In this document: in pieces, positions 10,977 to 38,432 of the stretch
Layout of the letters: every line of letters begins with the position of its first letter
Position numbering within the stretch: position 1 is the first letter of the stretch
From: Azoarcus indigens
GTDB lineage: Bacteria; Pseudomonadota; Gammaproteobacteria; Burkholderiales; Rhodocyclaceae
Reading direction: 5' to 3'
Length of the DNA: 38,838 nucleotides
NCBI RefSeq assembly: GCF_004361735.1
Contig: NZ_SNVV01000034.1
Coordinates: forward strand, 1-38,838
Position numbers and translations under genes: made by a program
Notes under the pieces: generated by a model
What the model was told of the DNA's origin: nothing
What the model saw: the letters and a program-made list of their open reading frames with translations, nothing else
Database searches by the model: none

Positions 10977-11843
10977 ATGCCCGAGCAGAACCAGTTCGAT
11001 TACAACGTCGCCTTCTCGCGCAACATCGGCTGGTTCACCGAGAAGGAACAAGCCTACCTGCGCCAGTGCCGCGTCGCCGTAGGCGGCCTGGGCGGCGTGG
11101 GCGGCAGCCACTTGATCACCCTCGCCCGCTTGGGCATCGGCAAATTCACCATTACGGACCTGGACACCTTCGACTGGCCGAACCTGAACCGTCAGGCCGG
11201 CGCCAGCTGCTCCACCATGGGCCTGCCCAAGCTGGATGTCATGGCGCGCCAGGTACTCGACATCAATCCCGAAGCCGATCTCAAGCTGATGCCCAACGGC
11301 CTCAGCCTGGACAACATCGACGACTTCCTGGACGGCGTCGACCTCTACATGGACAGCCTGGACATTTTCGCCCTGGATATCCGGCGCAAGGTGTTCGCGC
11401 GCTGCCGCGAGCGCGGTATTCCCGCCGTCACCGCCGCCCCGATGGGCATGGGCACGGCCATGCTCGCTTTCCACCCCCAGGGCATGAGCTTCGAGGATTA
11501 CTTCGCCCTGGATGGCTTCGCCTTCGAGGACCAGATCCTGAAGTTCATCGTCGGCGTTTCCCCATCCATGCAGCAGCGCCATTACTTGCTGGAGCGCGGC
11601 TCAGTGAACCTGTTCAAGAAGAAAGTACCGTCCACCGCGATCGGCATCGAACTGGCCGCCGGCGTGGCCTGCAGCAATGCGATCAAACTGATCCTCAAGC
11701 GCGGCGATGTCATCGTGGCGCCACGCGGGCTGCACTTCGACGCCTACCGCAACACCATGATCCGCACCTGGCGCCCCTTCGGGAATCGCAACCCGATGCA
11801 GCGCTTCATGTTCTGGTACATCAAGCGCCTGCTGTCGAAATAG
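10977..11843 (+). CDS. ThiF/MoeB/HesA-family E1-like adenylyltransferase
   Basis: This 288-residue protein has the adenylating E1 fold. The ATP-binding loop GGLGGVGGSH lies near residue 35, DLDTFDWPNLNRQ near 60 supplies the Mg/ATP Asp and Asn-Arg pair, GLPKLDVMARQVLDINP carries the conserved Lys, and YMDSLDIFALD has the family Asp region. So activation of a carboxylate by AMP transfer is likely. The zinc-binding CxxC pairs of MoeB and ThiF are absent and no ubiquitin-like partner, JAB peptidase or rhodanese lies beside it, so the substrate is unknown. The C-terminus is basic and ends FMFWYIKRLLSK. I chose the ATG at 10977 because GGAG lies six bases upstream; a longer frame from 10884 adds a low-complexity stretch without support. 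Confidence 0.85.
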   Translation: MPEQNQFDYNVAFSRNIGWFTEKEQAYLRQCRVAVGGLGGVGGSHLITLARLGIGKFTITDLDTFDWPNLNRQAGASCSTMGLPKLDVMARQVLDINPEADLKLMPNGLSLDNIDDFLDGVDLYMDSLDIFALDIRRKVFARCRERGIPAVTAAPMGMGTAMLAFHPQGMSFEDYFALDGFAFEDQILKFIVGVSPSMQQRHYLLERGSVNLFKKKVPSTAIGIELAAGVACSNAIKLILKRGDVIVAPRGLHFDAYRNTMIRTWRPFGNRNPMQRFMFWYIKRLLSK

Positions 11844-11887
11844 CACGGCGTTTCGTTCGCACCGCCCGGCAACGACAGGCACAAATA

Positions 11888-11917
11888 AAAACCCCCACGC
11901 TTCCGCGCGGGGGTTTT
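11888..11917. terminator. Bidirectional intrinsic terminator between the ThiF and PEP-CTERM genes
   Basis: Arms AAAACCCCC (11888-11896) and GGGGGTTTT (11909-11917) flank an inner short stem. The T-run works for the plus-strand ThiF gene and the A-run for the minus-strand PEP-CTERM gene, which converge here. Confidence 0.88.
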
Positions 11918-11954
11918 AGCCCTTGAGCAACCCGGCCCAGGGCCGGGCATTCAA

Positions 11955-12845
11955 TCAGGCAGCAGCCTTGCTCTTGCGACGACGGGTCAGACCCAGACCC
12001 AGCAGACCAGAGCCCAGCAGCATCAGCGAAGCAGGTTCCGGCACATTGTTCGCAACCACGGTGAAGGTACCGCTACCGTCGTGGTTGGAGGTCAGGTCGA
12101 AACCACCAGGCACCGCCGTGAAGTCGCTCACGAAGATGTTGGTGTCGAAGCTGGCCAGGAACTCGATCGCCAAGGCGTCGGCACCGGAATCACCGCAATT
12201 CAACCAGATGTCGTAGAAGCCGCTGGAGCCGTTGCACTCGAAGTCAGCCGAGTGGAACAGGTTCGCGTAGGTCAGATCCGCGATACCGGTGAAATCGGCC
12301 GTACCGGTCAGCACGGTGCTTACGCCAGTCGCGCCACCACCGCTCACGGCGATGTTCATGAAGTTAATCATGTTGACGCCGTCGAACGAGATGTACATCT
12401 CGATCAGACCCGGGCTGTACGAGAAGGTCGGCACGCCGCCATTCACGCCGGTCACCACGCCGTTGAGGTTATCCACGGAGAAGCTCAGCAGCCAGTTGGT
12501 GCCGTAACCGTTATTGCTGTGAGTACCGAATACCTGGTTCGGAGTGAAGCCAGTGATCTGGTTGTTGGTCAGGTTGCCAACAGCAAGACCACCGCTGGTC
12601 GTCAGGTTGTCGCCGGCGCTGATCACGCCGTCACCGTTGGTGTCCTGGATGAAGGTCCGGGACTGGTAGGTGAAGAGGAACTCATCCTTCAGCGAGGTGC
12701 CGGTGTCGGTAACCTTGTCGCGCTGGGGCGCCGGGACGCCGTCGTAGTTGGTGCCGACATCCAGATAGAACGGGGCAGCGTTGGCAGCCGAGGCACCCAT
12801 CAACAGGCCGGCGGTAGCCATCGCGAATAGTACTTTCTTGCTCAT
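11955..12845 (-). CDS. PEP-CTERM sorting-domain surface protein with an EF-hand-like loop
   Basis: This 296-residue protein carries both marks of the exosortase system. It has a signal peptide (MSKKVLFAMATAGLLMG, likely cut after ANA at residue 23). Its C-terminal PEP-CTERM sorting signal starts at residue 268 with VPEPASLMLLG, then a hydrophobic run, then TRRRKSK. Exosortase/EpsH proteins are thought to process such proteins and help place them in the extracellular polymer matrix. Residues 68-79 (DTNGDGVISAGD) match a 12-residue calcium-binding loop of the dockerin/EF-hand kind. The rest is rich in G, N, T and S and reads like a beta-rich secreted domain. GGGAG lies seven bases before the ATG. 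A sigma-54 promoter lies upstream and a terminator downstream, so it is a single-gene unit. Its specific role is unknown. Confidence 0.9.
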   Translation of the reverse strand: MSKKVLFAMATAGLLMGASAANAAPFYLDVGTNYDGVPAPQRDKVTDTGTSLKDEFLFTYQSRTFIQDTNGDGVISAGDNLTTSGGLAVGNLTNNQITGFTPNQVFGTHSNNGYGTNWLLSFSVDNLNGVVTGVNGGVPTFSYSPGLIEMYISFDGVNMINFMNIAVSGGGATGVSTVLTGTADFTGIADLTYANLFHSADFECNGSSGFYDIWLNCGDSGADALAIEFLASFDTNIFVSDFTAVPGGFDLTSNHDGSGTFTVVANNVPEPASLMLLGSGLLGLGLTRRRKSKAAA

Positions 12846-13160
12846 TTGCCATCTCCCAAAGTGTTGGCGAAATCGTCAGCGTTTGGCTCTGTCTTGGGGT
12901 CAAACACTTTCCGCCACATCGCCGCGCCAAGCAATAAGCAAAGCCAATGCCAGATTTTTAAATTCATTAAAAATCATATAGATAAACAAAAAACCACATT
13001 TTTTCTGTTCTGCCTCAGGCTGGACTGTAAAAAAAACCGACACCCCATCTTGCCACCGGCGGGCCCGCCATCGAAAATCCCTGAGGAGGCTGTGCCAATA
13101 TGCGATTCTCCGCCTCTTCAGGCAGTGCCAGAGCCTTCAACAACTATTCCTATACAAAGC
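12846..13160. other. AT-rich divergent regulatory region between the PEP-CTERM gene and the permease operon
   Basis: This 315-base region holds no convincing gene. It is far more AT-rich in its middle (about 12950-13010) than the rest of the window. It contains the sigma-54 promoter (12937-12952). Next to that is an inverted repeat ATTTTTAA-attca-TTAAAAAT (12954-12974). Further out are a 12-bp palindrome GGCGGGCCCGCC (13058-13069) and a spaced inverted pair CCTCAGG (13013-13019) / CCTGAGG (13080-13086). The last two lie about 90-160 bases upstream of the inferred PEP-CTERM start of transcription, the usual distance for a sigma-54 activator. The AT-rich stretch could be bent for activator looping. 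No clear sigma-70 promoter for the permease operon is seen. Confidence 0.6.
12937..12952 (-). promoter_or_regulatory. Sigma-54 (RpoN) promoter of the PEP-CTERM gene
   Basis: On the minus strand TGGCATTGGCTTTGCT fits the sigma-54 pattern TGGCAC-N5-TTGCW. The GG at 12951-12950 and the GC at 12939-12938 are exactly ten bases apart, the invariant spacing. The -24 element has one mismatch in TGGCAC and the -12 TTGCT is perfect. Transcription would start near 12926, about 80 bases before the ATG. PrsR, a sigma-54 activator, is encoded in the same window. Confidence 0.75.
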
Positions 13161-14402
13161 ATGCTCAAGCCCGCCGTTGCCCTTAATCACTTCCGCACCG
13201 CCTGGCGCAACGTCGTGCGACAGGTCAGCCGCAGCCGCGCGGCCTTGATCGCAATCGCCTTCGGAGTGGTGGCCATGATCCTGGCCGCCGGTTTCATCGA
13301 CTGGAACCTCAGATTCGGCCGGGACAACACCATCCTGTCCCAGCTCGGGCATCTGCAGGTCATGCGTCCCGGCTTCACCGAGTACGGGCGCGCTGATCCG
13401 TACGGCTATCTTCTTCCTGAGATGAAACCTGCGGAAAAGGCGGCGCTGGAAGGGCTGCCCGGCTATCGCGTCTCCGCACCGCGCCTCCTGATCTCCGGGC
13501 TGGCAAGCTCCGGCGACACCACCCTTTCCTTCATCGGCGAGGGGGTGGATCCCGCCGCGGAGTCATCTCTTTCGGCAGCCTTGCGCTTTCCACAAGGGCG
13601 CAATCTGCAAACGGGCGACCACAAGGCCGCCATCGTCGGCCAGGGGCTGGCGCTGAATCTGGGCGTCAGGGTTGGCGACACGCTGGTGTTGATCTCCAAC
13701 ACCGGCAACGGCGGCATCAGCGCCGTCGAAGCCGAGGTCGTCGGCCTGTTCGAATCCATCACCAAGGCCTATGACGACGCCGCCCTGCGCATCCCGATCG
13801 ACCTCGCGCGGGAGCTGATGCGAACCGAAGGCGAACATCTCCGCCTGGTACTGCTGGATAAAACCGAGAACGTACCTGTGGCCGACCGCCAATTGCGCGC
13901 AGCCCTTCCATCAGACCGCTACGAGGTGGTCCCCTGGTGGCAACTGGCAGACTTCTACAACAAGACAGAAGCGCTGTTTTCCAAGCAGGTCGGATTCATC
14001 TACCTCGTCATCTCGATAATCATCGTGCTCGCCATCACAAACACCATGACCATGATGGTGATGGAGCGGATCAGCGAGATCGGCACCATGATGGCGCTGG
14101 GCACCCGGCAACGGGACATCCGCATCATGTTCCTGCTCGAAGGCACCATACTGGGGGGGCTGGGGGCACTGATCGGCATCGTTGCCGGCGTTCTGCTGGC
14201 GCTGCTCATCAGCGCCATCGGCATTCCCATGCCGCCCGGCCCCATCATGAGCTGGCCCTATGAGGCCGGCATCCTGCTGACGGCGGACAACATACTGACA
14301 GCCGCCGGCGTCGCCCTGCTCACCACCGTTCTGGCCAGCGCCTATCCGGCCTGGAAGGCCTCCCGCCAGGAGATCGTCAATGCGCTGCGTGCGCGCATTT
14401 GA
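13161..14402 (+). CDS. FtsX/MacB-type ABC transporter permease, first of pair
   Basis: This 413-residue inner-membrane protein has the LolCE/MacB topology. One helix lies near the N-terminus (AALIAIAFGVVAMILAAGF). A large periplasmic domain of about 230 residues follows, then three helices at the C-terminus starting at VGFIYLVISIIIVLAIT. The motif MERISEIGTMMALGTR after the second helix is the coupling region that contacts an ABC ATPase. Such permeases usually work with a LolD/MacB-like ATPase to extract or push lipids, lipoproteins or peptides, but no ATPase is adjacent. The ATG at 13161 is chosen because the protein then begins with the cytoplasmic lead of the first helix; no good ribosome site precedes it. 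A GTG at 13092 in the same frame has AGGAGG too close. The gene is 12 bases before the second permease. Confidence 0.86.
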   Translation: MLKPAVALNHFRTAWRNVVRQVSRSRAALIAIAFGVVAMILAAGFIDWNLRFGRDNTILSQLGHLQVMRPGFTEYGRADPYGYLLPEMKPAEKAALEGLPGYRVSAPRLLISGLASSGDTTLSFIGEGVDPAAESSLSAALRFPQGRNLQTGDHKAAIVGQGLALNLGVRVGDTLVLISNTGNGGISAVEAEVVGLFESITKAYDDAALRIPIDLARELMRTEGEHLRLVLLDKTENVPVADRQLRAALPSDRYEVVPWWQLADFYNKTEALFSKQVGFIYLVISIIIVLAITNTMTMMVMERISEIGTMMALGTRQRDIRIMFLLEGTILGGLGALIGIVAGVLLALLISAIGIPMPPGPIMSWPYEAGILLTADNILTAAGVALLTTVLASAYPAWKASRQEIVNALRARI

Positions 14403-14414: not shown

Positions 14415-15635
14415 ATGCGAGATCTGACCCGGCTCGGCTTCCGCAACCTGCTCCGCAACAGGGTACGGACCGCGATCACCCTGGCGGTGGTCACCTTCGG
14501 AGTCTGCGGCCTGATCCTCTCCGGCGGCTTCATCCGCGACATCTTCGTTCAACTCGGCGAAGCGCTGATCCATTCCCAGAGCGGCCACGCCCAGATCGGC
14601 CGTGAAGCGCTGTTCAGCTTCGGCTCCCGCTCGCCGGAGCGCTACCTGCTGGAAAAACCTGAAGCCTTGCGCAGCTATCTCGCAGAGCAGCCGGAAGTGA
14701 AGAATGTCATGGCGCGGATCACCTTTTCCGGCTTGCTCAACAACGGCAAGACCGACTACCCGGTGATCGTCGACGGCATCGAGGCCGACCGCGAGAACGA
14801 GCTCGGCACCTTCCTCCATCTGGTGTCCGGGCGCATGCTCACCGACAAGGACCAGTACGGCGCGGTCATAGGTGAAGGGGTGGCCAATGCACTGCGCCTG
14901 AAGGCTGGCGATCAGGCCACCCTGCTGGTGAACACCATAGATGGCGCAATGAACACCCTGGATGTCGAGATCGTTGGCGTGTTCCAGAGTTTCTCCAAAG
15001 ACTTCGACGCCCGGGCGATGCGCATTGCCCTGCCGGATGCGCAGTCCCTTCTGGCCACCGATGGCATTGGCAAATACGTTCTGGAACTGCATCGGACGGA
15101 TCAGACCGCCGCGCTGGTCCAGCGCGTCCGCGCCAACCTGCCGGCCGGTGATGTCGTCGTCCGCGACTGGGAGGAACTGAACGACTTCTACGGCAAGGCG
15201 GTCGAGCTCTACCAGCAGCAGTTCGGCTTCCTGAAGGCCACCATCCTGCTGATGGTCTGCCTCAGCGTCATCAACACCGTGAACATGAGTCTGGCCGAAC
15301 GCAGCTGGGAATTCGGCACCATGCGCGCCCTGGGCAACCGCAACCGGACCGTCATCGGACTCATCCTGACGGAATCCCTGGTGCTCGGCCTCGCCGGCGC
15401 GCTCATCGGCACGCTATTCGGCCTGCTGCTGGCGGCAGTCATTTCGGGCATCGGCATACCAATGCCCCCTCCACCCAATGCCAACCTCGGCTATGATGCC
15501 TATATCAGAATTGAAACAAGCGACGTACTTGAAAGTGCGCTCATCGGTACATGCGCAACCTTGATTGCTGCGATCTATCCCGCCTGGCGAACCACGAGAC
15601 TGAGCATCATAGATGCTCTTCGGGCCCGAGAATAA
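14415..15635 (+). CDS. FtsX/MacB-type ABC transporter permease, second of pair
   Basis: This 406-residue protein is a paralogue-like partner of the preceding permease with the same one-plus-three helix plan. It starts MRDLTRLGFRNLLRNRVRTAITL. The periplasmic MacB-type domain spans about residues 45-265. The coupling motif LAERSWEFGTMRALGNRN follows the second helix. The C-terminal loop GIGIPMPPPPN closely parallels GIGIPMPPGP in the first permease, so the two probably form a heterodimer. GAGAGGGAAGG precedes the ATG. The next gene, the exosortase-system acyltransferase, starts about 25 bases after the stop, so the three genes read as one operon. The missing ATPase must be encoded elsewhere if the transporter is ATP-driven. 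Confidence 0.86.
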   Translation: MRDLTRLGFRNLLRNRVRTAITLAVVTFGVCGLILSGGFIRDIFVQLGEALIHSQSGHAQIGREALFSFGSRSPERYLLEKPEALRSYLAEQPEVKNVMARITFSGLLNNGKTDYPVIVDGIEADRENELGTFLHLVSGRMLTDKDQYGAVIGEGVANALRLKAGDQATLLVNTIDGAMNTLDVEIVGVFQSFSKDFDARAMRIALPDAQSLLATDGIGKYVLELHRTDQTAALVQRVRANLPAGDVVVRDWEELNDFYGKAVELYQQQFGFLKATILLMVCLSVINTVNMSLAERSWEFGTMRALGNRNRTVIGLILTESLVLGLAGALIGTLFGLLLAAVISGIGIPMPPPPNANLGYDAYIRIETSDVLESALIGTCATLIAAIYPAWRTTRLSIIDALRARE

Positions 15636-15660
15636 AGGGCTGCCAACGCTATTCAGGGAG

Positions 15661-16440
15661 ATGACGTTGTTGCTCTTCGAACGCTTCAACCTGGGCCACG
15701 GCTTCAGGAAATACTTCGAGATTGCTCCAGCCACCAACGAGGCTCTGCGGAACGACGTGTTCCGCATACGCCACGAGGTCTACTGCGAGGAGTTGCATTT
15801 CGAGCCCGAACGTCCGGACCGTCGCGAGAGCGATCAGTATGACTCCCACAGCCTGCACTGCCTGATCCGCACCTCCAACCAGCCCACGCAGTTGGTCGGC
15901 TGCACCCGCCTGGTCCTCGTCAATCCGGCCGATCCCGACGAACCGCTACCGTTCGAGCGCACCTGTGCGGCGACGCTGGACCGCTCCATCATCGATCCCG
16001 CCCGGTTGCCTCGCGGAAGCATTGCCGAGGTTTCCCGCCTCGCCGTCCGCGGCCTGTATCGCCGACGCAAGGGCGAGGACCACAGCGCCATCGCCATCAG
16101 TGAAGAAGACTACGGCAACAGCGAGCGGCCGCGCTTCCCCTACATCCCCATCGGCCTTTACCTGGGGGCGGTCGCACTGGCGGCCCGTAGCGGCATCGAG
16201 ACGCTGTTCGTGCTCACCGAGCCTCGGCTTGCCGCGCATTTTGGCAAGCTGGGTGTCGACATTCGCCAGATCGGGGGACCGGTGGAACACCGCGGCACAC
16301 GCGTGCCTTCCGTCATGGACGTACAGAGCATCATCAAGAGCATGCGCTTCATCGTGAAACCCATCTGGAAAGTGATCCACGAGGAAATCGAGCGCGGCTA
16401 TGAGCAGGAAGCGCATAGCGGCAAGCTGAAGAGCAACTGA
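15661..16440 (+). CDS. PEP-CTERM/exosortase system-associated acyltransferase (N-acyl amino acid synthase-like)
   Basis: This 259-residue protein belongs to the GNAT-like acyltransferases found only in species with PEP-CTERM sorting, related to acyl-homoserine-lactone and N-acyl-amino-acid synthases. Visible family features are FRIRHEVYCEELHFEP near residue 34, YDSHSLHCLIRT, LVGCTRLVLVNP, the RGSIAEVSRLAVRGLYRRRKG segment around 120-140, and FPYIPIGLYLGAVALAARSGIETLFVLTEPRLA. The likely reaction is transfer of an acyl chain from acyl-ACP or acyl-CoA to an amino group; the acceptor is unknown. The start is uncertain: AGGGAG touches the ATG at 15661, a TTG at 15667 has better spacing, and an ATG at 15613 overlaps the permease. 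A strong terminator follows. Confidence 0.85.
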   Translation: MTLLLFERFNLGHGFRKYFEIAPATNEALRNDVFRIRHEVYCEELHFEPERPDRRESDQYDSHSLHCLIRTSNQPTQLVGCTRLVLVNPADPDEPLPFERTCAATLDRSIIDPARLPRGSIAEVSRLAVRGLYRRRKGEDHSAIAISEEDYGNSERPRFPYIPIGLYLGAVALAARSGIETLFVLTEPRLAAHFGKLGVDIRQIGGPVEHRGTRVPSVMDVQSIIKSMRFIVKPIWKVIHEEIERGYEQEAHSGKLKSN

Positions 16441-16464
16441 CCTTCCTTCCCTGACCGATGAAAG

Positions 16465-16490
16465 AAAAAGCCCGCATGCGCGGGCTTTTT
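16465..16490. terminator. Bidirectional intrinsic terminator between the acyltransferase and prpE
   Basis: Perfect 11-base arms AAAAAGCCCGC (16465-16475) and GCGGGCTTTTT (16480-16490) enclose a 4-base loop. It is symmetric, so it ends the plus-strand acyltransferase operon and the minus-strand prpE message. Confidence 0.93.
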
Positions 16491-16511
16491 CACTTCCAGC
16501 TTGCCCGGCGC

Positions 16512-18404
16512 TCAGCCGGCCAATGCGGCGCGAATCTGGTCCAGCGTGCTCGGATCGTCTATCGTCGTCAGGTCACCCGGATCCCGCCCTTCGGCCAGCG
16601 CCTGGATGGAGCGGCGCAGCATCTTGCCGGAACGCGTTTTCGGCAAGCCGCTGATGAAATGGATCCGCGCCGGCCGCGCGATAGCGCCCAGGCTGTCATC
16701 CACCGTCTTCATCACCTCCTTCTCCAGCGCGGCCCGCTTCTCCGCGCTGTCGATGCGGCCGGCATCCTTCACCACCGCGAAGGCCATCGGCATCTGCCCC
16801 TTCAACTCGTCATGCACGCCGACCACCGCCACCTCGGCGATGGCGTTATGCCCCTGCACCGCCTCCTCGATCTCGCGTGTTCCCAGGCGATGTCCGGCGA
16901 CGTTGATGACGTCGTCCATGCGACCCAGAATGGTGTGGTAACCCTGTTCGTCCTTGATGCCCCAGTCCGACGAGGAATACACCACCGGGTTGGTGAACAG
17001 GCTGAAGTAGGTGGAAACGAAGCGCTCGTCCTGACCCCAGACGGTGGACAGGCAACCCGGCGGCAGCGGCGGCACCACGCCGACGATGCCCTTCTCGCCC
17101 GCCCCGCACTCACTACCATCCTCGCGGAAGATGCGCAGGTCGTAGCCATAAACGGGGAAGCTGGGGCTGCCGAACTTGATCGGCGTCTTCTCCACGCCGC
17201 GTACCGCCGCCAGCATCGGCCAGCCGGTCTCGGTCTGCCAGTAGTTGTCGATCACCGGGATGCCGAGTTCGCCCATGATCCATTCATGGGTCGGCTGGTC
17301 CAGCGGCTCGCCAGCGAGGAAGAGGTGCTTGAGCGAGGAGAGGTCGTACTTCTTGAGGAAGGCCGGATCCTGCTTCTTTAGCACCCGCACCGCGGTCGGC
17401 GCCGAGAACATCACGCTGACCTTGTACTTCTCGACGATGCTCCACCAGATGCCTGCGTCCGGCCGCAGCGGCGTGCCCTCGTACATGATGGTCGCCATGC
17501 CGGCGATCAATGGCGCGTAGATGATGTAGCTGTGGCCCACCACCCAGCCGATGTCCGAGGTGGTGAACATCGTCTCGCCTTCGCCGCCGGTGTAGATGTG
17601 TTGCATGGACGCCGCCAGCGCCACGCAGTAGCCGCCCGTGTCACGCTGCACGCCCTTGGGCTTACCGGTGGTGCCGGAGGTGTAGAGGATATAGCTCGGC
17701 TCCGAGCTTTCCACCCAGGTCACCGGCACCTTTGCGTCCAGGTGCTTCACGCGCTGTTCGGCGTAATCGACGTCGCGGCCGGCCACCCGCGGGAAGCCCT
17801 TGTCCAGCCCGCGATCGACGATGAGCACCTTCTGCGGCGGGAATTCGGCCAGCTTGCAGGCCTCGTCCACCAGATGCTTGTAGGGCACTGGCTTGCCATT
17901 GCGCATGCCAGCGTCTGCGCTGACCATCAGCTTGGGCCGGGCGTCGTCGATGCGGGTCGCCAGCGAGCCTGCGGCGAAGCCACCGAACACCACCGAGTGG
18001 ATGGCGCCGATGCGGGCGCAGGCCAGGATGGCGAAGCAGGCCTGCGGGATCATCGGCATGTAGATCAGGACGCGGTCGCCCTTGCCCACGCCCAGATCCT
18101 GGTAGATCGCCGCCATGCGCTCGACTTCGCGCTGCAGCTCGGCGTAGGAGTAGATCGTCTCCTCGCCGGTTTCGGTGGAGATGTAGATCAGCGCACGTGC
18201 GTCCGGCCGCTTGGCCGCGTGCCTGTCCACCGCGTTGTAGCAAAGATTGGTTTCTCCGCCCTTGAACCACTTTACGAAAGGCGGTCGCGAGAAATCGCAG
18301 ATCTGTTCGGCCGGCTTGTTCCAGTGAATCAAACGCGCCTGCTCGGCCCAGAATTCGTCACGCTGGTCTATCGACCGGCGATGGAACGCCTGGTAGGTCG
18401 TCAT
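16512..18404 (-). CDS. prpE: Propionate-CoA ligase
   Basis: This 630-residue AMP-forming enzyme activates propionate to propionyl-CoA. The ANL-family motifs are present: YILYTSGTTGKPKGV (P-loop), NYWQTETGWPM (A5), SSDWGIKDEQGYHTILGRMDDVINVAGHRLGTREIEEAV (A7-A8 hinge), and PKTRSGKMLRR near the C-terminus with the catalytic Lys that is often acetylated. The N-terminus YQAFHRRSIDQRDEFWAEQA and the length fit PrpE rather than acetyl-CoA synthetase (about 650 residues with a different N-terminal block). The ATG at 18404 is preferred because AGAGGTGCTT lies directly upstream; an ATG seven codons earlier lacks a ribosome site. No prpB, prpC or prpD is near, so the propionyl-CoA may feed methylcitrate or polyhydroxyalkanoate routes encoded elsewhere. 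Confidence 0.93.
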   Translation of the reverse strand: MTTYQAFHRRSIDQRDEFWAEQARLIHWNKPAEQICDFSRPPFVKWFKGGETNLCYNAVDRHAAKRPDARALIYISTETGEETIYSYAELQREVERMAAIYQDLGVGKGDRVLIYMPMIPQACFAILACARIGAIHSVVFGGFAAGSLATRIDDARPKLMVSADAGMRNGKPVPYKHLVDEACKLAEFPPQKVLIVDRGLDKGFPRVAGRDVDYAEQRVKHLDAKVPVTWVESSEPSYILYTSGTTGKPKGVQRDTGGYCVALAASMQHIYTGGEGETMFTTSDIGWVVGHSYIIYAPLIAGMATIMYEGTPLRPDAGIWWSIVEKYKVSVMFSAPTAVRVLKKQDPAFLKKYDLSSLKHLFLAGEPLDQPTHEWIMGELGIPVIDNYWQTETGWPMLAAVRGVEKTPIKFGSPSFPVYGYDLRIFREDGSECGAGEKGIVGVVPPLPPGCLSTVWGQDERFVSTYFSLFTNPVVYSSSDWGIKDEQGYHTILGRMDDVINVAGHRLGTREIEEAVQGHNAIAEVAVVGVHDELKGQMPMAFAVVKDAGRIDSAEKRAALEKEVMKTVDDSLGAIARPARIHFISGLPKTRSGKMLRRSIQALAEGRDPGDLTTIDDPSTLDQIRAALAG

Positions 18405-18438
18405 AAGCACCTCTCCCTTCCTCATTTGCGAATGGCGT

Positions 18439-18460
18439 ACGGCGGCCCCTCAGCCGCCGT
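18439..18460 (-). other. Hairpin between the REC-GGDEF gene and prpE
   Basis: ACGGCGGC (18439-18446) and GCCGCCGT (18453-18460) form a perfect 8-bp stem with a 6-base loop in the 69-base gap. No U-run follows on the minus strand. It may partly separate the two messages or be a transcript-stability element. Confidence 0.35.
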
Positions 18461-18473
18461 GGTCCTGCTGCTC

Positions 18474-19664: not shown

Positions 19665-19782
19665 GGCGGGAGCAGGCTTTCCTGTGGGGCTATGGCCGAT
19701 CCGGACGGAGCCGCGGACGGATGACGAGGATGCGCCAGATTATAACGAAAAGCCATAGTCGGCCCGGCGGCCCGGCCCGCAC

Positions 19783-24223: not shown

Positions 24224-24376
24224 CGGTGGGCTCGGCGGGGATCGGAAAGGGTGAAAAGCTGGATTCTAGCGGGCTGCTACCATGGGGGCACGCCTCCGCC
24301 GCTGCGCGGAAGGGTCGCCACACCGGGCAGCAAGGCCCAGCGGCGCAACGCGGACGCGGCTATGTAGAGGATACGA

Positions 24377-30332: not shown

Positions 30333-33143
30333 TCAGAGCGTCTTGGCCAGCTCCCGCGCTTCGGCCTGCAGGGGCGAGCCGTCCTTGGCAGTGGCCAGCA
30401 AGGTATCGATTTCTTTCTTCGCCTCGTCCTTGCGACCAACCTTCGCATAGGCCTTCGCCAGGTTCAGCCGCAGCTGAGCCAGATCCGGCGCCAAGGAAAC
30501 CGCCTTGGCCAGCTTGGCGATGCCGGCATCCTGCTTGCCGACATTGATCTCGATGTTGCCGACCGTGTCCAGCACCACCGGGTTGTTCGGCTCGGCGGCC
30601 AGGGCCCGCTCCGCATAAGCCAGCGCGGCCGGGTCCTTGATCTCGTTAGCCACCCAAGCGAGGTTGTTCAGAATCAGGACGTTGTCCGGCGCCACTTCCA
30701 GCATGCTCTTGAAGTGCCTCGCTGCTTCGGCATAACGGCGCTCGGACAAGGCGGTTTCACCCAGGTAGCCCAGCACGGTGAGGTCGCGCGGGTGAGTGGC
30801 AAGCCAGGCGGAGGTGACCTTGTCCGCCTCCGCCTTCCGGCCTGCGCGGCTCAGCGCGGAATGCAGCTTGTTCACCACTTCCGCACTCTGGCCCTGATCG
30901 AAAGCACGGCGATACGCGGCCGCAGCCTCGGTCCACTGGTTTGCGCTCATGCGCACGTCGCCTTCCAGCAAGTAACCCAGCGGGTTGTCGGCATGCTGTT
31001 GCTGCATGCGCTTGGTCTGCGCCAAGGCGCCTTCCTGGTTACCGCTCTGCAGGCGCAGGGTAACCAGGCGCTGGGAAGCGAGCACGTGATCGCGCTGGAT
31101 CGCGAGCGCACGTTGCAGGCTTTGTTCCGCCCCTGTCAGATCGCCTGCCAGGCGCTGGGCCTCGGCCAGGTCCACCAAGGGACCGGGGGCCTGCTGCTGC
31201 AGCGAAACCAGCTTGGTGAAAGAGGAGATGGCCTGCTGCCGGTCGCCCGCGGCCAGTTGGGTGTGCGCCAGGACCTCCAACGCGGGGACATCGGCCGGGT
31301 TGGCCGTGACCGCGGTCTGGGCAATGCCCAGCGCCTTGTTCGGCTGCTGCATCCGCAAATGCTGCTGGATCAGGGCGATCTTCGGCCCGGTCGCGGCCGG
31401 CGCCACCGCGGCGGCCTTTTCCAGCGTGGCGAGCACTTCTGCCGCCGGCGAGCCGGTAGAGCGCTGCACCTCCGCGAGCGCGACCAAAGCGTCGCTGTTA
31501 CGCGGCTCCTGGGCGATAAGCTTCTCGTAGCGCGCCTTCGCTTCCGCCGGCTTCTTGTCCAGCAGGTCGAGCCGGACGAGGTTGGTGATCGCCGGCAGGT
31601 AGCTGGGTTGTATGGACACCGCCTTCTCGAAAGCCTGCCGGGCCTCGGCAAAGTCCTTCTTGGCCAGGAAGACGCCGCCCTTCAGGTTGTAGGTCTGCGG
31701 GTTGTTCGGCTCCTTGCGCTCCAGTTCCTTCTGCGCCACCAGCGCCTTGTCGTACTCGCCACGCCGCATGTGGGCGAACACCAGCGCCAGGTCCGCCTGG
31801 GCGGTGCTCTGATCGAGGCTGGAAGCCGCCTCCAGATCCGCGAAGGCGCCGTCGGTATCGCCACCCGCCATCTTCGCAACCCCCAGGCGGGCCCGGTTGG
31901 TCGCGTCGTTCGGCGATTTGGAAACTGCCCGGCTGAGGTAGGACTCGGCGGCGTCGAAATCGCCATTGGCGAGATAGACCTGCCCGGCCAGCGCCATCAG
32001 GCTGGCGTCCTCGCTCTGCTGCGCCTGCTGCAGCAAGGGCTGCAGGGCCTCCAGCGCCCGCGCGGACTCGCCGGAACCGAGGTAAGAAGCCACCAGCAGC
32101 CGGCGCGCCAGCGGCTGCTGAGGCGCCCGCTCCAGCACCTTGTTGAGGTGCGGACGGGCGGCAATATAGTCGTTCAACCGGACCAGGACGCTGCCGGCGA
32201 GCAGGTGGGCCGGCAGGTAATCCGGCGTGCCCTTGAGAACCAGCTGGACGCCGTTTCTCGCCTCTTGGAAACGGCCTTCACGGAAATCGACGAAGGCCTG
32301 CAGGTAGCGGGTGGACGGGTGGGCCGGTGCGGCCTTCTTCATCGCCGCCAGCCTTTCCTTGGCCTCGTCCAGCTTGTTCATGCTGAGCAACAGCGAAACC
32401 AGTCTGAAGTGATAGGAAAGCGCGCTGGGCCGGGCTGCAACTGCGGCATCCAGAGCCGCCACCGCCTCATCCGGGCGTCGCTCCGCGAGCCAGGTCTCGG
32501 CCAGCAAAGCATGCGCCTCCGGGGCGCCGGGCTCCTGCTTGGCAACGGTTTCGGCCTCAGCCCTGGCGCCGACGATGTCGCCACCGGCCAGCCGCGTCCG
32601 CCCGAGGCCAATGCGCGCCGGATAGACCGAGGCATCCGCCGCCAGAGCGGCTTCATATGCGTTCCTGGCCGCGGCGATATCGCCCTTGGCCATGCGGGCA
32701 TCGCCGACGGCGGCAAGCAGGCGGGCCTGAGCGCCGGCCTCGGGCAGCTTGCGCTCGCCGTAGCTCTTCAGCACGCCGTCGAAATCACCGCTGCGCAACA
32801 AGGCTCTTGCCAGCTCCGGCGCCACCGCATCGGAGGAGTAGCCCAGTTCCTCGGCGCGCTTCAACTCTTTCACTGCAGCGAAAGCATCGCCCTGCTCCAG
32901 ATAGACCTTGCCGAGCAGATAGCGGGCTTCTGCCAGATCTGCGTCCTCCAGCAGCGCATTCTTCAGCTGGATGCCCGCCGCGTTGTAGTCCTTCTTCTCA
33001 AGGTAAGTCTTGGCCGAAGCAACCATGGCCTGCGGGTCGTCCCCGCACCCCGCCAGCAAGGCCACCGAGAGGCAAGCCGCGGCGACGGCACCGCCGAGCG
33101 AGGGATGCCTGCGCAGGGCACGCCCGGAACGTTGCGAACGCAT
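30333..33143 (-). CDS. prsT: PrsT-type TPR-repeat lipoprotein of the PEP-CTERM system
   Basis: From the ATG at 33143 the protein has 936 residues, close to the usual 900 of the PEP-CTERM-associated TPR lipoproteins. It has a lipoprotein signal (SVALLAGC, lipidated Cys33) and then about twenty TPR-like repeats filling the rest, for example YLEKKDYNAAGIQLKNALLEDADLAEARYLLGKVYLEQGD. Such a solenoid would lie in the periplasm under the outer or inner membrane and bind other proteins. A TTG two codons earlier is open, but AGGAG spacing favours the ATG. It starts two bases after the prsR stop. The function is unproven; the family occurs with exosortase and the PrsK/PrsR pair. Confidence 0.9.
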   Translation of the reverse strand: MRSQRSGRALRRHPSLGGAVAAACLSVALLAGCGDDPQAMVASAKTYLEKKDYNAAGIQLKNALLEDADLAEARYLLGKVYLEQGDAFAAVKELKRAEELGYSSDAVAPELARALLRSGDFDGVLKSYGERKLPEAGAQARLLAAVGDARMAKGDIAAARNAYEAALAADASVYPARIGLGRTRLAGGDIVGARAEAETVAKQEPGAPEAHALLAETWLAERRPDEAVAALDAAVAARPSALSYHFRLVSLLLSMNKLDEAKERLAAMKKAAPAHPSTRYLQAFVDFREGRFQEARNGVQLVLKGTPDYLPAHLLAGSVLVRLNDYIAARPHLNKVLERAPQQPLARRLLVASYLGSGESARALEALQPLLQQAQQSEDASLMALAGQVYLANGDFDAAESYLSRAVSKSPNDATNRARLGVAKMAGGDTDGAFADLEAASSLDQSTAQADLALVFAHMRRGEYDKALVAQKELERKEPNNPQTYNLKGGVFLAKKDFAEARQAFEKAVSIQPSYLPAITNLVRLDLLDKKPAEAKARYEKLIAQEPRNSDALVALAEVQRSTGSPAAEVLATLEKAAAVAPAATGPKIALIQQHLRMQQPNKALGIAQTAVTANPADVPALEVLAHTQLAAGDRQQAISSFTKLVSLQQQAPGPLVDLAEAQRLAGDLTGAEQSLQRALAIQRDHVLASQRLVTLRLQSGNQEGALAQTKRMQQQHADNPLGYLLEGDVRMSANQWTEAAAAYRRAFDQGQSAEVVNKLHSALSRAGRKAEADKVTSAWLATHPRDLTVLGYLGETALSERRYAEAARHFKSMLEVAPDNVLILNNLAWVANEIKDPAALAYAERALAAEPNNPVVLDTVGNIEINVGKQDAGIAKLAKAVSLAPDLAQLRLNLAKAYAKVGRKDEAKKEIDTLLATAKDGSPLQAEARELAKTL

Positions 33144-33145
33144 GC

Positions 33146-34504
33146 TCAACTCTCCTTCTTCAAACCGAAGCGATTCATGAGGTCATAAAGCGACGGCCGG
33201 CTGATGCCCAGCACCTCGGCCGCCTTGACGATGTTGCCATTGGTCCGCGCCAGCGCACGCACCACCGCGCGCCGCTCCGCCTCGTCGCGGACGTGACGCA
33301 GATTCAGATGCTCCAGGTCCTCTTCAGCAGAAGCCAGGCCGAGGTCATCCGCGGTGACGCGATTCTCGTCGGCCATGATGACCGCCCGCTTCAGGCAATT
33401 CTCGAGCTCACGCACATTGCCCGGCCAGGGATGCGCCTCTATGGCCGCGAGCGCATCTTCGGCCAGGTGCAGCGTGCCGCGGCCGTTCTCCTTGGCGAAG
33501 CGCTGGACGAAGGCGTGCGCCAGCAGCATTGCGTCGCCCTCGCGCTCCCGCAGGGGCGGAATGTCGATGACGATCTCCGCCAGGCGGTAATAGAGGTCTT
33601 CACGGAAAGCACCGGCCTGTATCTGGGCCTTGAGATCGCGGTGGGTGGCGCACACCACCCGGACATTCACCGGAATTTCCTCCCGTCCGCCGATGCGCTC
33701 CACCACCCGCTCCTGCAGGAAGCGCAGCAGTTTGGCCTGCAGCGGCATCGGCAGATCACCAATTTCATCGAGGAACAGCGTGCCCTTGTTGGCGGTTTCG
33801 ATCTTCCCAGGGGTTTGCTTCACTGCACCGGTGAAGGCGCCTTTCTCGTAGCCGAACAGTTCGCTTTCAAGCAGCGTCTCAGGAATGGCCGCGCAGTTGA
33901 TGGCGACGAAACGCTCCTTGGCCCGCGGAGAAAGCGCATGCAGCCCACGAGCCAGCACTTCCTTGCCGGTACCGCTTTCGCCGAGCAGGGCCACGGTAAC
34001 GGAGGCCGAGGCCACCTTCTCCACCGTGCGGCACACCTTGAGCATCATCGGATCGCGCGTCAGCAGGCCAGCGAGCGCGCTTCCCTGGTGGGCCTTCAAC
34101 CGCACATTCTCCTGCTGCAGGTCGTAGAGCCGGAAAGCGCGCTCTATCGTCAGCGTCAGCAGTTCTGGCTCGAAGGGCTTGGCAAAGAAATCGTAGGCTC
34201 CCATGCCCACCGCACGCACCGCGTTCTCGCGGTCGTGCTGCCCGGTAAGCACGATGACGCGGGTATCCGGTGCCAGCGCGAGGATCTCGCCAAGCAGGCG
34301 GAAGCCCTCGGTAACGTCGTCGGGCGCCGGCGGCAACCCGAGGTCCATGGTGACGACAGCCGGCTCATGCCTGCGCAGTTGGGCCAGCGCGCTCTCGCGA
34401 TCGTCGGCGACGACCGTCTCGAACGCATCGAAGGCCCACCTCATCTGCTTCTGCAGCGCCGGGTCATCCTCGATGATCAACAGCGTGCGAGGCTTATCCG
34501 ACAT
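33146..34504 (-). CDS. prsR: PrsR sigma-54-dependent response regulator
   Basis: The 452-residue protein has the full NtrC-type plan. The receiver domain (1-120) has phospho-acceptor Asp54 in VVTMDLGLPP and Lys in FFAKPFEPE. The AAA+ domain (about 145-385) has Walker A GESGTGKE, the sigma-54-binding loop GAFTGA, Walker B GTLFLDEIGD, and RxDLYYRL with the arginine finger region. A C-terminal Fis-type helix-turn-helix (NGNIVKAAEVLGISRPSLYDLMNRFGL) binds DNA. It should act only on sigma-54 promoters. It overlaps prsK by 11 bases, so the kinase and regulator are co-translated. PrsR is known in the PEP-CTERM family as partner of PrsK. A good sigma-54 promoter lies before the PEP-CTERM gene at 12937-12952. 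Confidence 0.96.
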   Translation of the reverse strand: MSDKPRTLLIIEDDPALQKQMRWAFDAFETVVADDRESALAQLRRHEPAVVTMDLGLPPAPDDVTEGFRLLGEILALAPDTRVIVLTGQHDRENAVRAVGMGAYDFFAKPFEPELLTLTIERAFRLYDLQQENVRLKAHQGSALAGLLTRDPMMLKVCRTVEKVASASVTVALLGESGTGKEVLARGLHALSPRAKERFVAINCAAIPETLLESELFGYEKGAFTGAVKQTPGKIETANKGTLFLDEIGDLPMPLQAKLLRFLQERVVERIGGREEIPVNVRVVCATHRDLKAQIQAGAFREDLYYRLAEIVIDIPPLREREGDAMLLAHAFVQRFAKENGRGTLHLAEDALAAIEAHPWPGNVRELENCLKRAVIMADENRVTADDLGLASAEEDLEHLNLRHVRDEAERRAVVRALARTNGNIVKAAEVLGISRPSLYDLMNRFGLKKES

Positions 34505-36575
34505 GTTTCTCCGCTCCGTCCTTCCCGGCCCCAGCGTGGCGCGCGGCCGGCAAATCGATGGTCACCCGCGTGCCGCGCCCTTCTTCGCTGTCGAAGTGGA
34601 TGGCCCCGCCCAGTTCGGTGATGTATTGCTGGGTTTCGTAGACGCCGATCCCCATCCCGCTTGCCTTGGTCGTCTGAAACGGCCTCGCCAGCCGCTCCCG
34701 CAGGAAGGCGGCCGACATGCCACAACCGCTGTCCTCTACGACCACGCGCACCCGGTCCGCATGACCGGTATTCAGCCGGATCGACACCTTACCATCCTCC
34801 GGCGTAGCGTCCAGGGCATTTTGTACCAAGTGCCCTACCACCCGCTCCAGCCGCTCAGGATGGGCAATCACCTCGGCCGAGCCCGCCCCTTCCCTATGCA
34901 CCTCAACTGGCGGCAGCAAGGCCCGCTTAACCTGCTTGACATGCTCCGCCATGGTGGCGAGATCCACCACCTTTGCAGGGTCGATGGAGCGCTTTTCCTG
35001 CAGCTGTGTCATCAAGGTGCGCATGCGAGACTCAACATGGGCAACCGTCTCCAGCATGTCCTCCTGGAAGGCCGGATTGTGCTTGTGGCGCTCCGCATTC
35101 TTCAGCATCAGTGAAAGCTGCGCGACCAGATTCTTCAGGTCATGCACGACGAAGGCCGACATGCGGTTGAAGGACTCGAACTTCCTTGCCTCCAGCAAGG
35201 CTTCCGCAGCCTGCATCCGCTCCAGGTAACTGGCTGCCTGGCGCTGGGCGGTCTTCAGCAGATCGAGAACCTCCCAGTCAATTTCGAACCGCGCCCGCGG
35301 AGCGTTCAGAACCACGAATCCGACCAAGCCACTGGTGCTCTTCAGCGGGATCACCAACCAGGCATCCGCGATCGAAGAGAGCCAATCGGGCAAGACCAGC
35401 CCTTGGTACTGCATGCGTCTGCTTCGATACTCCTCCAGGTCGATCACCCAGGTCCGCTCATCCAGAAAGCGGCAGAGAGGCGAGTCCGCCGACTCTATCG
35501 CCGCCGACACCGCCAGGTTGAGCCGGGAATGCATCAGGTAACGCCCGTTTCCGTCCCTCAACCACAGCCCACCGCCCGGGCTCTCCACCAGGTCTGAGAG
35601 CGCCTTGATCACCGTCTGTCCCAGGTCCAGCCCATCACCGGCCGAAGATATGGCCTGTGTAAATCTCAGCCATTCGTTCCGGTAGTCGTAGCGGTAGGGG
35701 AAGAGGTGCTTGTTAAGGAACACTCGCAACCGGGCGCGCTGCGCACCAGAGAAGACGAAGACGCCTAGCAACACCAGACCGGCAAACAGCAAGGTCAACT
35801 GCAGCGCCCGCCCCCAGTCCCCCCCAAAGTAGCGAACGTAGTAGCCCGCCGCCGCGATGACCAGGAGATAGACGCCCGTGCCGACCAGAGCGGTCGAGTG
35901 GAAGACCATCTCCCTCGACATCGACATCCGTAAGGTCCAGGCCGGATTGCGCGTCGCCGACAGGGCAACCAGGGGAATCAGTAGCGCGTGGGCAACCCCT
36001 CGTACGGCCCAGACATCAGGATCCAGGCGGCTGAAGAGGAAACCGTCCGCGAAGAGGTAGAGATCGAACATGAAGCCCGCGCCAAGCGCGAGGCACAGTG
36101 GCTTGAATCCCCAGCGGGACTCCGACGGCAGCGCCCTGAACAACTGCTCGACAAGCACCAGACCAAGAATGGCCTGCATGAGAAAAGTCGCGATGGAGAG
36201 GCCGACCACGCTCTCCGCAGGCAGCAGGTCCACCATACCAGCCGCGATCACTAGCAGCTGGGCAGAGATCACCCCCGCAGCAGCCAGGAACGGCCACTTT
36301 GTCCGGCCTGCGCCAAGGGGGCGCAGAAGAACCAGTATGAAGGCGAACCAGGCGGCGCCCCTCGCGATATCCAGCAATCGCACCAGTTCGAATAACCATG
36401 CCGCCGATGTATGGGCAACGAAGCCGCTGGCAGCGGCCCAGATGCAGGACACCACCACTGCCAATATCAGCAGACCGCCCGGCCTTCCCCCCCGCCATGC
36501 GAAAAACAGGTAGAGACCGAAGCATAGATAAGTGAAAGCGGAGAGCCCGTAGCCCCAGATTGCTACCTCCGCCAC
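34494..36575 (-). CDS. prsK: PrsK membrane sensor histidine kinase
   Basis: PrsK is the sensor kinase of the PEP-CTERM system. The 693 residues begin with about eight hydrophobic helices (to about residue 275), then a GAF-like domain (WLRFTQAISSAGDGLDLGQTVIKALSDLVES to LVGFVVLNAP). The kinase core follows: a phospho-acceptor His in FVVHDLKNLVAQLSLM, N-box VQNALDATPEDG, and G boxes VEDSGCGM and GMGIGVYETQQYITELGG. The large number of N-terminal helices suggests sensing in or near the membrane. I chose the GTG at 36575 because GGAGG lies five bases upstream; a TTG five codons earlier also fits. It lies 81 bases downstream of the sugar transferase and overlaps prsR. Confidence 0.95.
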   Translation of the reverse strand: MAEVAIWGYGLSAFTYLCFGLYLFFAWRGGRPGGLLILAVVVSCIWAAASGFVAHTSAAWLFELVRLLDIARGAAWFAFILVLLRPLGAGRTKWPFLAAAGVISAQLLVIAAGMVDLLPAESVVGLSIATFLMQAILGLVLVEQLFRALPSESRWGFKPLCLALGAGFMFDLYLFADGFLFSRLDPDVWAVRGVAHALLIPLVALSATRNPAWTLRMSMSREMVFHSTALVGTGVYLLVIAAAGYYVRYFGGDWGRALQLTLLFAGLVLLGVFVFSGAQRARLRVFLNKHLFPYRYDYRNEWLRFTQAISSAGDGLDLGQTVIKALSDLVESPGGGLWLRDGNGRYLMHSRLNLAVSAAIESADSPLCRFLDERTWVIDLEEYRSRRMQYQGLVLPDWLSSIADAWLVIPLKSTSGLVGFVVLNAPRARFEIDWEVLDLLKTAQRQAASYLERMQAAEALLEARKFESFNRMSAFVVHDLKNLVAQLSLMLKNAERHKHNPAFQEDMLETVAHVESRMRTLMTQLQEKRSIDPAKVVDLATMAEHVKQVKRALLPPVEVHREGAGSAEVIAHPERLERVVGHLVQNALDATPEDGKVSIRLNTGHADRVRVVVEDSGCGMSAAFLRERLARPFQTTKASGMGIGVYETQQYITELGGAIHFDSEEGRGTRVTIDLPAARHAGAGKDGAEKHVG

Positions 36576-36656
36576 TTTCCCCTCCGGCAACCCTATCTTG
36601 TTACATCTAAGGCATCGGTACGCTCACCGTGCCAGCACCTTATTCTCGACAGACGC

Positions 36657-38042
36657 TTAATGCGCCCCTTCACCCGTCAGCACAACCCGCACCGTTTCAA
36701 ACAACACCAGGGTGTCCAGTACGAGAGTGTGATTCTTCACATAGTAGAGGTCGTACTGCAACTTCTGGATTGCATCATCTACCGAAGATCCATACTGGTA
36801 ACGCACCTGCGCCCATCCGGTGACGCCCGGCTTGACGCAATGGCGGACCGCGTAGAACGGAATTTCCTTGGCCAACTGATCGACGAAGTAAGGCCGCTCA
36901 GGCCGCGGCCCGACCAGGCTCATATCGCCGACGAACACGTTGAACAGTTGGGGCAGTTCATCGATTCGCAACTTGCGGATGACTCGCCCTACGCGCGTCG
37001 CCCGATCATCGTTGGAAGATGCCCAGCGCGGCTTGCCATCCTTCTCGGCGTCGGTACGCATGCTCCTGAACTTGATCACACGAAAAACACGGCCCCCGAA
37101 TCCCACCCGCTCCTGGCGATAGAAAATAGGAGCTCCATCCTCGATCAGAATAAACAAGGCCGTCACCAGCATGATCGGAAAGGTCAGTACGAGAAGCAGG
37201 GTCGCCGCAGCCAGATCAAAACAGCGCTTCACGATGGTTCGCCCTACCCCCTGCCTGAAACCATCTCCATAGATCAGCCAACTTGCTCGCAAGGAGTCGA
37301 CCCGAACCTGCCCTTGTACGCGCTCGAAGAAGGAAGAGAGATCGATTACCTGCACCCCAGAGAGCTTGCAGTCCAGAAGCTCGTGCAAAGGCAGGACGCC
37401 TCCTCTCCGCTCCCTCAGCGCCACAATGATCTCGTTGACCCTGTTCTTGCGCACAACATCTAGAAGACGCTCTCCCCGCCCTAGAACCTTGCGGGCGTCG
37501 ACCTCGATCGCGTCCTCACCGCTGGGAGAGAAAAAACCCACGATCTCCATGCCGCTCTGGACCGGGTGCGTGAGCGCCCGCTGCACGGCAACTGCATCCG
37601 TCCCGGTCCCGATGATCAGCACTCTAGGCGCAAAGAGTGAAGAAGCCCGACGGCGGTTTACCAGTCCCCGCATTGAAAGCACAAAGCCTAACAACAGCAA
37701 CACGGAGACCTGCATCGCCTCGGAAGCAACCCCCTCCCATGGGAGCAGACCGAAAATACCGTAGGCAACCGGGATGCTTACAACGATGGACAGCAATACC
37801 CTGGTCAACGCGTTCTTGTGCGATTCGCTCGCCAACGGGCGGTATAAACCCATCGCGGAATTGAGGATCACCATGAGCAGAGCGAACGACAGTGCTGACG
37901 GCACAACCGTGTACCACTGCACCATCTCCGTGTTCAGCTGCATGACCACAGCTACCAGGACAGCAACGAACAGCAAGAAGGCATCGAAGAGGATCTGCTG
38001 AAGCGTGTGGGAGGGGAAGTAGTGGCTGAAGACTTTCAGCAT
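36657..38042 (-). CDS. EpsB-type undecaprenyl-phosphate sugar transferase (PEP-CTERM/EPS system)
   Basis: This 461-residue membrane enzyme starts a polysaccharide repeat by moving a sugar-1-phosphate onto undecaprenyl phosphate. The ATG at 38042 (MLKVFSHYFP) is chosen because AGGAAAACC precedes it; codons further upstream in frame are Arg/Lys-rich and unlike the family. Four helices fill the first 130 residues, then a Rossmann-like domain (VLIIGTGTDAVAVQ). The catalytic domain follows one more helix and shows YRQERVGFGGRVFRVIKFRSM, TDAEKDG, IDELPQLFNV, and DMSLVGPRPERP. It fits the sub-family that occurs beside PrsK/PrsR/PrsT. It is probably the first gene of the block. Confidence 0.92.
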   Translation of the reverse strand: MLKVFSHYFPSHTLQQILFDAFLLFVAVLVAVVMQLNTEMVQWYTVVPSALSFALLMVILNSAMGLYRPLASESHKNALTRVLLSIVVSIPVAYGIFGLLPWEGVASEAMQVSVLLLLGFVLSMRGLVNRRRASSLFAPRVLIIGTGTDAVAVQRALTHPVQSGMEIVGFFSPSGEDAIEVDARKVLGRGERLLDVVRKNRVNEIIVALRERRGGVLPLHELLDCKLSGVQVIDLSSFFERVQGQVRVDSLRASWLIYGDGFRQGVGRTIVKRCFDLAAATLLLVLTFPIMLVTALFILIEDGAPIFYRQERVGFGGRVFRVIKFRSMRTDAEKDGKPRWASSNDDRATRVGRVIRKLRIDELPQLFNVFVGDMSLVGPRPERPYFVDQLAKEIPFYAVRHCVKPGVTGWAQVRYQYGSSVDDAIQKLQYDLYYVKNHTLVLDTLVLFETVRVVLTGEGAH

Positions 38043-38432
38043 GGTTTTCCTCGTTTTGCGGCGGCGCACAACGCAGATATCGACTACAGATATCTGCATG
38101 CACAAGCCATTCTTAGCCCAGAGACCCACACCTTACTGGAATAAAAGCAACAGTTACGTTAAACCGGTCACGGTGATCACGACGCCATTACACGACAGAC
38201 GAACCAGAGAATAACTGATTGATTTTTATGGAGTTAGAGTCTTGGCGAGACATGAAAGGCGGCAATGATAGCACAGCTGCATTGCCCCTCTACCCGACAA
38301 TCTCTCACCTTCCCTCCGTTCTTGCAAAGCTTGATACGCCGCAAAATGAGTGAGAACAAAACCAGTATGATGAGCCGCGGTGCCGCATGCCTTTTCGCAT
38401 GCCCCCATTCACAATTCATGAGGACGCCTCCC
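38043..38432. other. Divergent intergenic region before the sugar transferase and the MaoC gene
   Basis: This stretch of 390 bases shows no convincing gene. It contains the candidate sigma-54 promoter at 38106-38121 and an 8-bp palindrome GTGATCAC at 38173-38180, about 80 bases upstream of the inferred start, a place where an activator could bind. It is less GC-rich than the genes around it. Confidence 0.5.
38106..38121 (-). promoter_or_regulatory. Weak sigma-54 promoter candidate for the sugar transferase operon
   Basis: On the minus strand CTGGGCTAAGAATGGC has GG (38119-38118) and GC (38107-38106) at the ten-base spacing of sigma-54 promoters. The outer bases CTGG and GCT fit, but the middle of both elements differs from TGGCAC and TTGC. 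Transcription would start near 38094, some 50 bases before the ATG. Confidence 0.35.

Follow-up and report, generated by a model that had tools for sequence, protein, structure and literature searches.

The window, i.e. the whole 38,838-nucleotide stretch of Azoarcus indigens DNA that was analysed, contains a gene for a PEP-CTERM protein as well as genes of the Prs system. The PEP-CTERM gene is transcribed from the minus strand and is separated by an intergenic region of 315 nt (12846-13160) from a divergent gene with its ATG placed at 13161. The divergent gene encodes an ABC permease related to LolC/LolE, with scores far below the cutoffs of those models. The elements in the intergenic region are ordered on the minus strand as a box (13042..13026), 73 bp, a promoter (12952..12937), 91 nt and the ATG. 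The features of the window considered here are:

11888..11917, minus strand: intrinsic terminator 3' of the PEP-CTERM gene, with a 13-pair stem, 8 G-C pairs and a T tail
11955..12845, minus strand: PEP-CTERM gene, 296 amino acids, PepA-like, with a signal peptide-like start and the tail VPEPASLMLLGSGLLGLGLTRRRK (TIGR02595, 24.1 bits, cutoff 16)
12846..12926, minus strand: predicted 5' leader, its +1 at about 12926 derived from the -12 element, with a GGGAG ribosome site ahead of the ATG
12937..12952, minus strand: predicted sigma-54 -24/-12 promoter TGGCATTGGCTTTGCT, a consensus match
12972..12984, minus strand: IHF-like block TATCTATATGATT, at a fixed offset of -32 to -20 from the first base of the promoter, weak when taken alone
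13026..13042, minus strand: PrsR box (motif 1 of Haft et al.), 17 nt, TGTCGGTTTTTTTTACA, a predicted PrsR-bound enhancer and an exact match to TGTCRGNNTTTTTTACA
30333..33149, minus strand: PrsT, a TPR protein of the same Prs system (TIGR02917, 853.4 bits, cutoff 312.2)
33146..34504, minus strand: PrsR, an NtrC-type response regulator with GAFTGA and a Fis-type tail, full length (TIGR02915, 741.7 bits, cutoff 502.6)
34494..36590, minus strand: PrsK, a membrane histidine kinase, full length (TIGR02916, 887.3 bits, cutoff 300)
36657..38129, minus strand: EpsB2-type XrtA/PEP-CTERM glycosyltransferase (TIGR03013, 533.1 bits, cutoff 393.35)

The PEP-CTERM protein matches the floc_PepA model (NF033554) over the full length of the model with residues 4-292, and it is called PepA-like and not PepA because its 64.3 bits do not reach the curated cutoff of 80 bits. 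The product would be a sorted protein of the floc or matrix, and it was detected in 2 of 101 relatives, its own genome included. The gene is probably a single-gene unit since it is followed by a strong terminator, and most PEP-CTERM genes are described as single-gene units in the available text of Haft et al. 2006 (PMC1569441). The original prediction also named a PrsR with an intact GAFTGA loop and PrsK as its kinase, and this agrees with two full-length proteins that score above their cutoffs and with GAFTGA in the translation of PrsR. The genome has two rpoN genes (C20:15195-16607 and C3:256207-257583). Between the pepA-like gene and the prs genes there is also a PEP-CTERM/exosortase-associated acyltransferase at 15613-16440 (TIGR03694, 271.9 bits, cutoff 111.95). 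No exosortase was found among the 30 ORFs of the window scanned with NCBIfam, and the ORFs at 16458-17381, 17532-18554, 18561-19724 and 22406-24367 matched nothing in NCBIfam or Pfam at E 0.001.

The sequence at 12952..12937 has the GG-N10-GC spacing and the perfect -12 element (TTGCT) that were originally described, with a single mismatch (T for C) at -24. If C12938 is taken as -12, transcription is predicted to start at about 12926, giving a leader of 81 nt. The end of the site is 91 nt from the ATG at 12845, and the earlier figure of about 80 bases before the ATG is thus correct for the transcript start but not for the site itself. The fold of the leader is not unusual between 12926 and 12830 (z -0.74), and a leader hairpin, tried as a candidate, was rejected on this value. 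On its own the sigma-54 match is weak because the consensus TGGCACNNNNNTTGCW with at most two mismatches occurs 19 times in the window compared with a shuffle mean of 22.8, i.e. without excess, and because bare GG-N10-GC is common here, with nine occurrences within 500 bases around the start of the PEP-CTERM gene. The pattern TGGCAYNNNNNTTGCW occurs 21 times in the 5.46 Mb genome compared with three times for the same pattern read backward, and its arithmetical chance expectation on the right strand of the 315-nt intergenic region is about 0.0006.

The case for the promoter is made by the box TGTCGGTTTTTTTTACA, which lies 73 bp upstream and was overlooked in the original prediction. A two-part element (motif 1 and motif 2) was predicted for PrsR by Haft et al. 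2006 (PMC1569441). According to the available text, motif 1 is 17 nt long and ends in TTTACA, the sigma-54 motif 2 follows 32-92 nt downstream (mean 62.8, SD 10.6) and the start codon is found 23-221 nt after motif 2. The window has the same element, with a 17-nt box ending in TTTACA, a 73-nt spacer, GG-N10-GC and 91 nt to the ATG of a PEP-CTERM gene, and the genome encodes PrsR, PrsK and PrsT, all above their cutoffs and all in the window.

Exact copies of TGTCRGNNTTTTTTACA number three in the 5.46 Mb, on contigs C34 (the window), C7 and C30, and all three precede PEP-CTERM genes, a count that is partly circular in that the pattern was read from these copies and anchored on the TTTACA of Haft et al. 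Each exact box is followed by a -24/-12 promoter, at 73, 64 and 64 bp. Five more places are found with two mismatches, compared with two in the backward control. The looser combination TTTACA-N55-85-TGGN9TGC is no commoner in the genome (six places) than in the reversed control (five), and only its placement is telling: three of the six places precede PEP-CTERM genes where about 0.001 would be expected by arithmetic. Downstream of a fourth place is an ORF whose tail is PEP-CTERM-like. On the earlier proposal to search for further GG-N10-GC sites before PEP-CTERM genes, the full pair of box and promoter precedes three of the eight PEP-CTERM genes above the cutoff and is absent from the other five, so that PrsR is not the general switch of PEP-CTERM genes in this organism. 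Two boxes with two mismatches before a PEP-CTERM gene (C9:56159 and C9:56458) were not counted as pairs because there is no -24/-12 site with at most four mismatches within 10-140 bp downstream. Autoregulation and further PrsR targets within the window were also considered and rejected, no second box being present there at up to two mismatches. One box with three mismatches occurs in the window at 27984-28000, a stringency at which shuffles give 0.32 matches each.

The pair is preserved in the closest comparison. The ortholog in Azoarcus sp. TTM-91 is 97% identical as a protein, and upstream of it the box (17/17) and the promoter (16/16) are unchanged while the spacer is identical at only 39 of 73 positions and still 73 bp long. 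Pairs were also found ahead of two Sedimenticola homologs (47% and 44%), with spacings of 75 and 74 bp, and in one of these pairs there are 4 and 2 mismatches. For a broader comparison the PepA model was of little use as a source of orthologs, being passed in only 6 of 369 genomes, and the two sets that were compiled therefore represent PEP-CTERM genes in general and not pepA orthologs. Set 1 comprises 99 PEP-CTERM genes with their upstream DNA, taken from 55 genomes of the class after two of 101 places had been omitted for lying near a contig start. Set 2 consists of 84 PEP-CTERM genes, among the matches listed, from 29 other genomes of the phylum; the genomes of set 1 were excluded, and the genes were hand-picked before their upstream DNA was viewed. 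A pair was defined as a box with at most five mismatches and a promoter with at most two, at any distance of 10-140. Such pairs were found in 61 of the 99 genes in set 1, compared with 3 of 99 in the reverse complement and 1 of 99 in the reversed control, and 53 of the 61 are near the gene start. The corresponding figures in set 2 are 42 of 84 genes, compared with two and none.

The distance between box and promoter is not evenly distributed. It clusters at 41, 51-54, 59-65, 72-77, 83-85 and 95-98, followed by scattered values up to 125, and is thus quantised in steps of about 11 bp (41, 52, 63, 74, 85, 96), a pattern that was replicated in the 29 further genomes. The 61 pairs of set 1 give a best period of 11.2 bp with R 0.73, a value that none of 20000 jitter nulls reach. 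When the period and phase of set 1 are applied to set 2 the mean cosine is 0.73 (n=42), again with 0/20000 nulls. With both sets combined the best period is 11.0 (bootstrap 10.75-11.3), and 90 of 94 distances between 35 and 100 are within 2 bp of 41/52/63/74/85/96 with none in the 22 positions between turns, although these positions and the lattice were chosen after the data had been seen, unlike the test on set 2, which used the earlier period and phase. The 73 bp of the window and the 64, 64 and 63 bp of the other pairs in its genome are on the lattice; a weak pair that does not belong to a PEP-CTERM gene (C9:13492, 71 bp) is off it.

A lattice of this kind could also arise by shared ancestry of a few upstream regions and not by physical constraint. 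Distances of 62-63 dominate, and when set 1 is filtered for redundancy (60% gapped spacer identity by single linkage, one site per genome), 16 sites remain and the signal disappears, the observed value being reached by 6710 of 20000 nulls. That filter is judged too harsh because the median spacer identity under gapped alignment is already 0.50 and spacers of equal length are preferentially merged. The signal is kept when only one site per genome is used, both in set 1 (n=41, R 0.75, 0/20000) and in the new genomes of set 2 (n=22, 0/20000, with period and phase fixed beforehand). Shared ancestry is for these reasons regarded as an unlikely source of the lattice, and a constraint on spacing is preferred.

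Two other places in the genome deserve mention beside the spacing. At G000:C1:571621-571704 (L035), a box-promoter pair (four mismatches in the box, 63 bp, TGGCATATTCATTGCT) precedes an ORF ending in LPAPSPLTLLLFGLGACGARGWRGRR. This tail is PEP-CTERM-like with PAP for PEP, and the ORF, which matched no NCBIfam model, is possibly an unrecognised sorted protein. At G000:C9:13492 (L046), a box with two mismatches and a weak -24/-12 site 71 bp away precede an ORF of 204 amino acids without a credible family match. This ORF adjoins an HPr-rel-A PqqD-type protein (TIGR04353, 41.5 bits, cutoff 35), and the place may link PrsR to that peptide system, with a spacing that is off the lattice.

When the spacers are aligned on the promoter with no motif assumed, information is found at -31, -30, -24, -23 and -20, and the profiles of the two sets correlate at 0.73. 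The aligned motif reads YAA-N4-TTGATW, which is the IHF consensus. With YAANNNNTTGATW, taken here as the form of that consensus, a block with at most two mismatches starts precisely at -32 in 17 of the 53 promoters of set 1 and 13 of the 41 of set 2, where the next best combination of offset and orientation gives 8 and 7. Sites with at most one mismatch anywhere in the spacer occur in 24 of 53 and 29 of 41, compared with dinucleotide-shuffle means of 11.9 and 9.5. At the -32 offset the number of mismatches is two in the window, one in Azoarcus sp. TTM-91, two at C7, five at C30, nine at C1 and five and four in Sedimenticola. The block is thus frequent and not universal, because it is absent at -32 from two of the genome's three other PEP-CTERM or PEP-like promoters with a pair and from both Sedimenticola homologs.

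The pair occurs together with PrsR. No PrsR ortholog was found in nine genomes of set 1 and five of set 2; since the family search in set 1 scored the best four candidates per genome, the nine apparent lacks were rechecked with the protein, and in set 2 absence refers, for a few large genomes, to the best 58 of a larger number of candidates. In set 1, well-placed pairs precede 50 of 83 genes from genomes with PrsR and 3 of 16 from genomes without (p 0.0024); the corresponding counts for set 2 are 41 of 69 and 0 of 15 (p 1e-5). The two sets together give 91 of 152 genes where the genome has PrsR and 3 of 31 where no ortholog was found (Fisher p 1.4e-7), where all three p-values are too small because genes within one genome are not independent, while the direction is clear. 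The co-occurrence reproduces, on a larger number of genomes, an inference that Haft et al. drew from 13.

Some other enhancer-binding protein, such as NifA or a paralog of PrsR, might nevertheless occupy the box before a true sigma-54 promoter. Candidates of this class are numerous in the genome (94 at a first look with the PrsR model), and three genes (L099, L117, L128) carry well-placed pairs in genomes where a PrsR ortholog was not found; either PrsR was missed in the assembly or another activator of equal specificity is present there. The upstream activator site of NifA is TGT-N10-ACA, and the box shares this TGT...ACA frame but reads TGT-N11-ACA, and it is thus not a NifA site in the strict sense. 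In addition, box and PrsR co-occur, PrsK and PrsR are encoded within the window, and the profile match of Haft et al. was, in the available text, to PrsR. A different activator is consequently held to be improbable. A chance -24/-12 match, with transcription of the gene from a promoter of the sigma-70 type, might be suggested by the abundance of GG-N10-GC in G+C-rich DNA and the lack of excess over shuffles, but is most improbable given the box at a lattice distance, the conservation of box and promoter over a diverged spacer and the result of a simple scan of 11800-13200, in which the minus strand showed nothing resembling a sigma-70 site.

From the box, the promoter, the spacing rule and the co-occurrence with PrsR, all read from sequence, the site is in all likelihood a sigma-54 promoter from which the PEP-CTERM gene is transcribed as a single-gene unit, and which would be opened via a loop by PrsK-activated PrsR at the box. 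The originally proposed sigma-54 promoter turned on by PrsK/PrsR is thereby supported by the box, the two additional pairs in the genome, the conservation in Azoarcus sp. TTM-91 and the rarity of the pair without PrsR, observations that suggest direct control at this gene. For the families concerned it is established that activators of the NtrC type act on sigma-54 promoters by way of a DNA loop and so open them. In the proposed sequence of events PrsK would phosphorylate PrsR, which would bind the box at 13042-13026; the spacer DNA would loop, perhaps bent by IHF at 12984-12972, and the AAA+ domain of PrsR with its GAFTGA would meet the closed sigma-54 polymerase at 12952-12937 and open the promoter, with transcription predicted from about 12926. 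The box would have to sit on the correct face of the helix, so that its distance from the promoter would vary from gene to gene only by whole turns of about 11 bp.

The regulatory reading is very probably right, and the kind of switch is already known. According to the available text of PMC9012009, PEP-CTERM genes in Zoogloea resiniphila were reportedly placed under RpoN and PrsK-PrsR by Gao and coworkers in 2018. In Aquincola tertiaricarbonis, the available text of PMC9850573 describes a pepA gene that is RpoN1-dependent, with a mapped start, -24/-12 elements TGGCAC/CTGCTT and an enhancer-like sequence upstream. The gene in the window resembles it as a PEP-CTERM gene with a -24/-12 promoter and an enhancer-like upstream sequence, but the Aquincola pepA is located immediately upstream of prsT in that account whereas the present gene and prsT are about 18 kb apart and the protein encoded here is below the PepA cutoff. 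Floc formation in an Aquincola prsK mutant was not restored by a plasmid with prsK or prsK-prsR, according to the same text.

The addition, relative to the available text of the searched papers on the PrsR/PEP-CTERM system, is the quantisation of the distance between box and promoter by about 11 bp together with a fixed IHF-like block. In the text available from Haft et al. 2006 the spacer is given by mean, SD and range, the quantisation and the block are absent and the word "helical" occurs only inside a reference title; in the available parts of the other literature searched, no mention of helical spacing or IHF at PEP-CTERM promoters was found. It is suggested, with fair but not full confidence, that PrsR-controlled PEP-CTERM promoters are a looped device of three parts, with an IHF-type bend about 26 bp upstream of -24 and a box only at whole turns (about 11 bp, over 41-96 bp and possibly about 120), a geometry retained across Proteobacteria even as the spacer itself changes in sequence. 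A comparable rule is described in the available text of PMC4740811 for the Vibrio LuxO-qrr system, where the loop lengths of 61 sigma-54 enhancers cluster at steps of about 11 bp. The two systems share the rule and differ in activator and genes; the qrr enhancers there belong to one gene family in one genus, whereas the present PEP-CTERM genes come from 55 and 29 genomes of one phylum.

The PrsR-dependent genes would be another, independent case of the whole-turn rule seen at the qrr enhancers, which suggests that the rule may be general for sigma-54 enhancers near their promoters. The loose published element, with a mean spacing of 62.8 and SD of 10.6, becomes a geometric rule that is usable to find PrsR targets, and the floc-type surface protein encoded here, in an Azoarcus-like bacterium, is placed under a known switch. 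If the three-part geometry is true, PrsR regulons could be read from sequence, and this would extend to genes that have no recognised PEP-CTERM tail.
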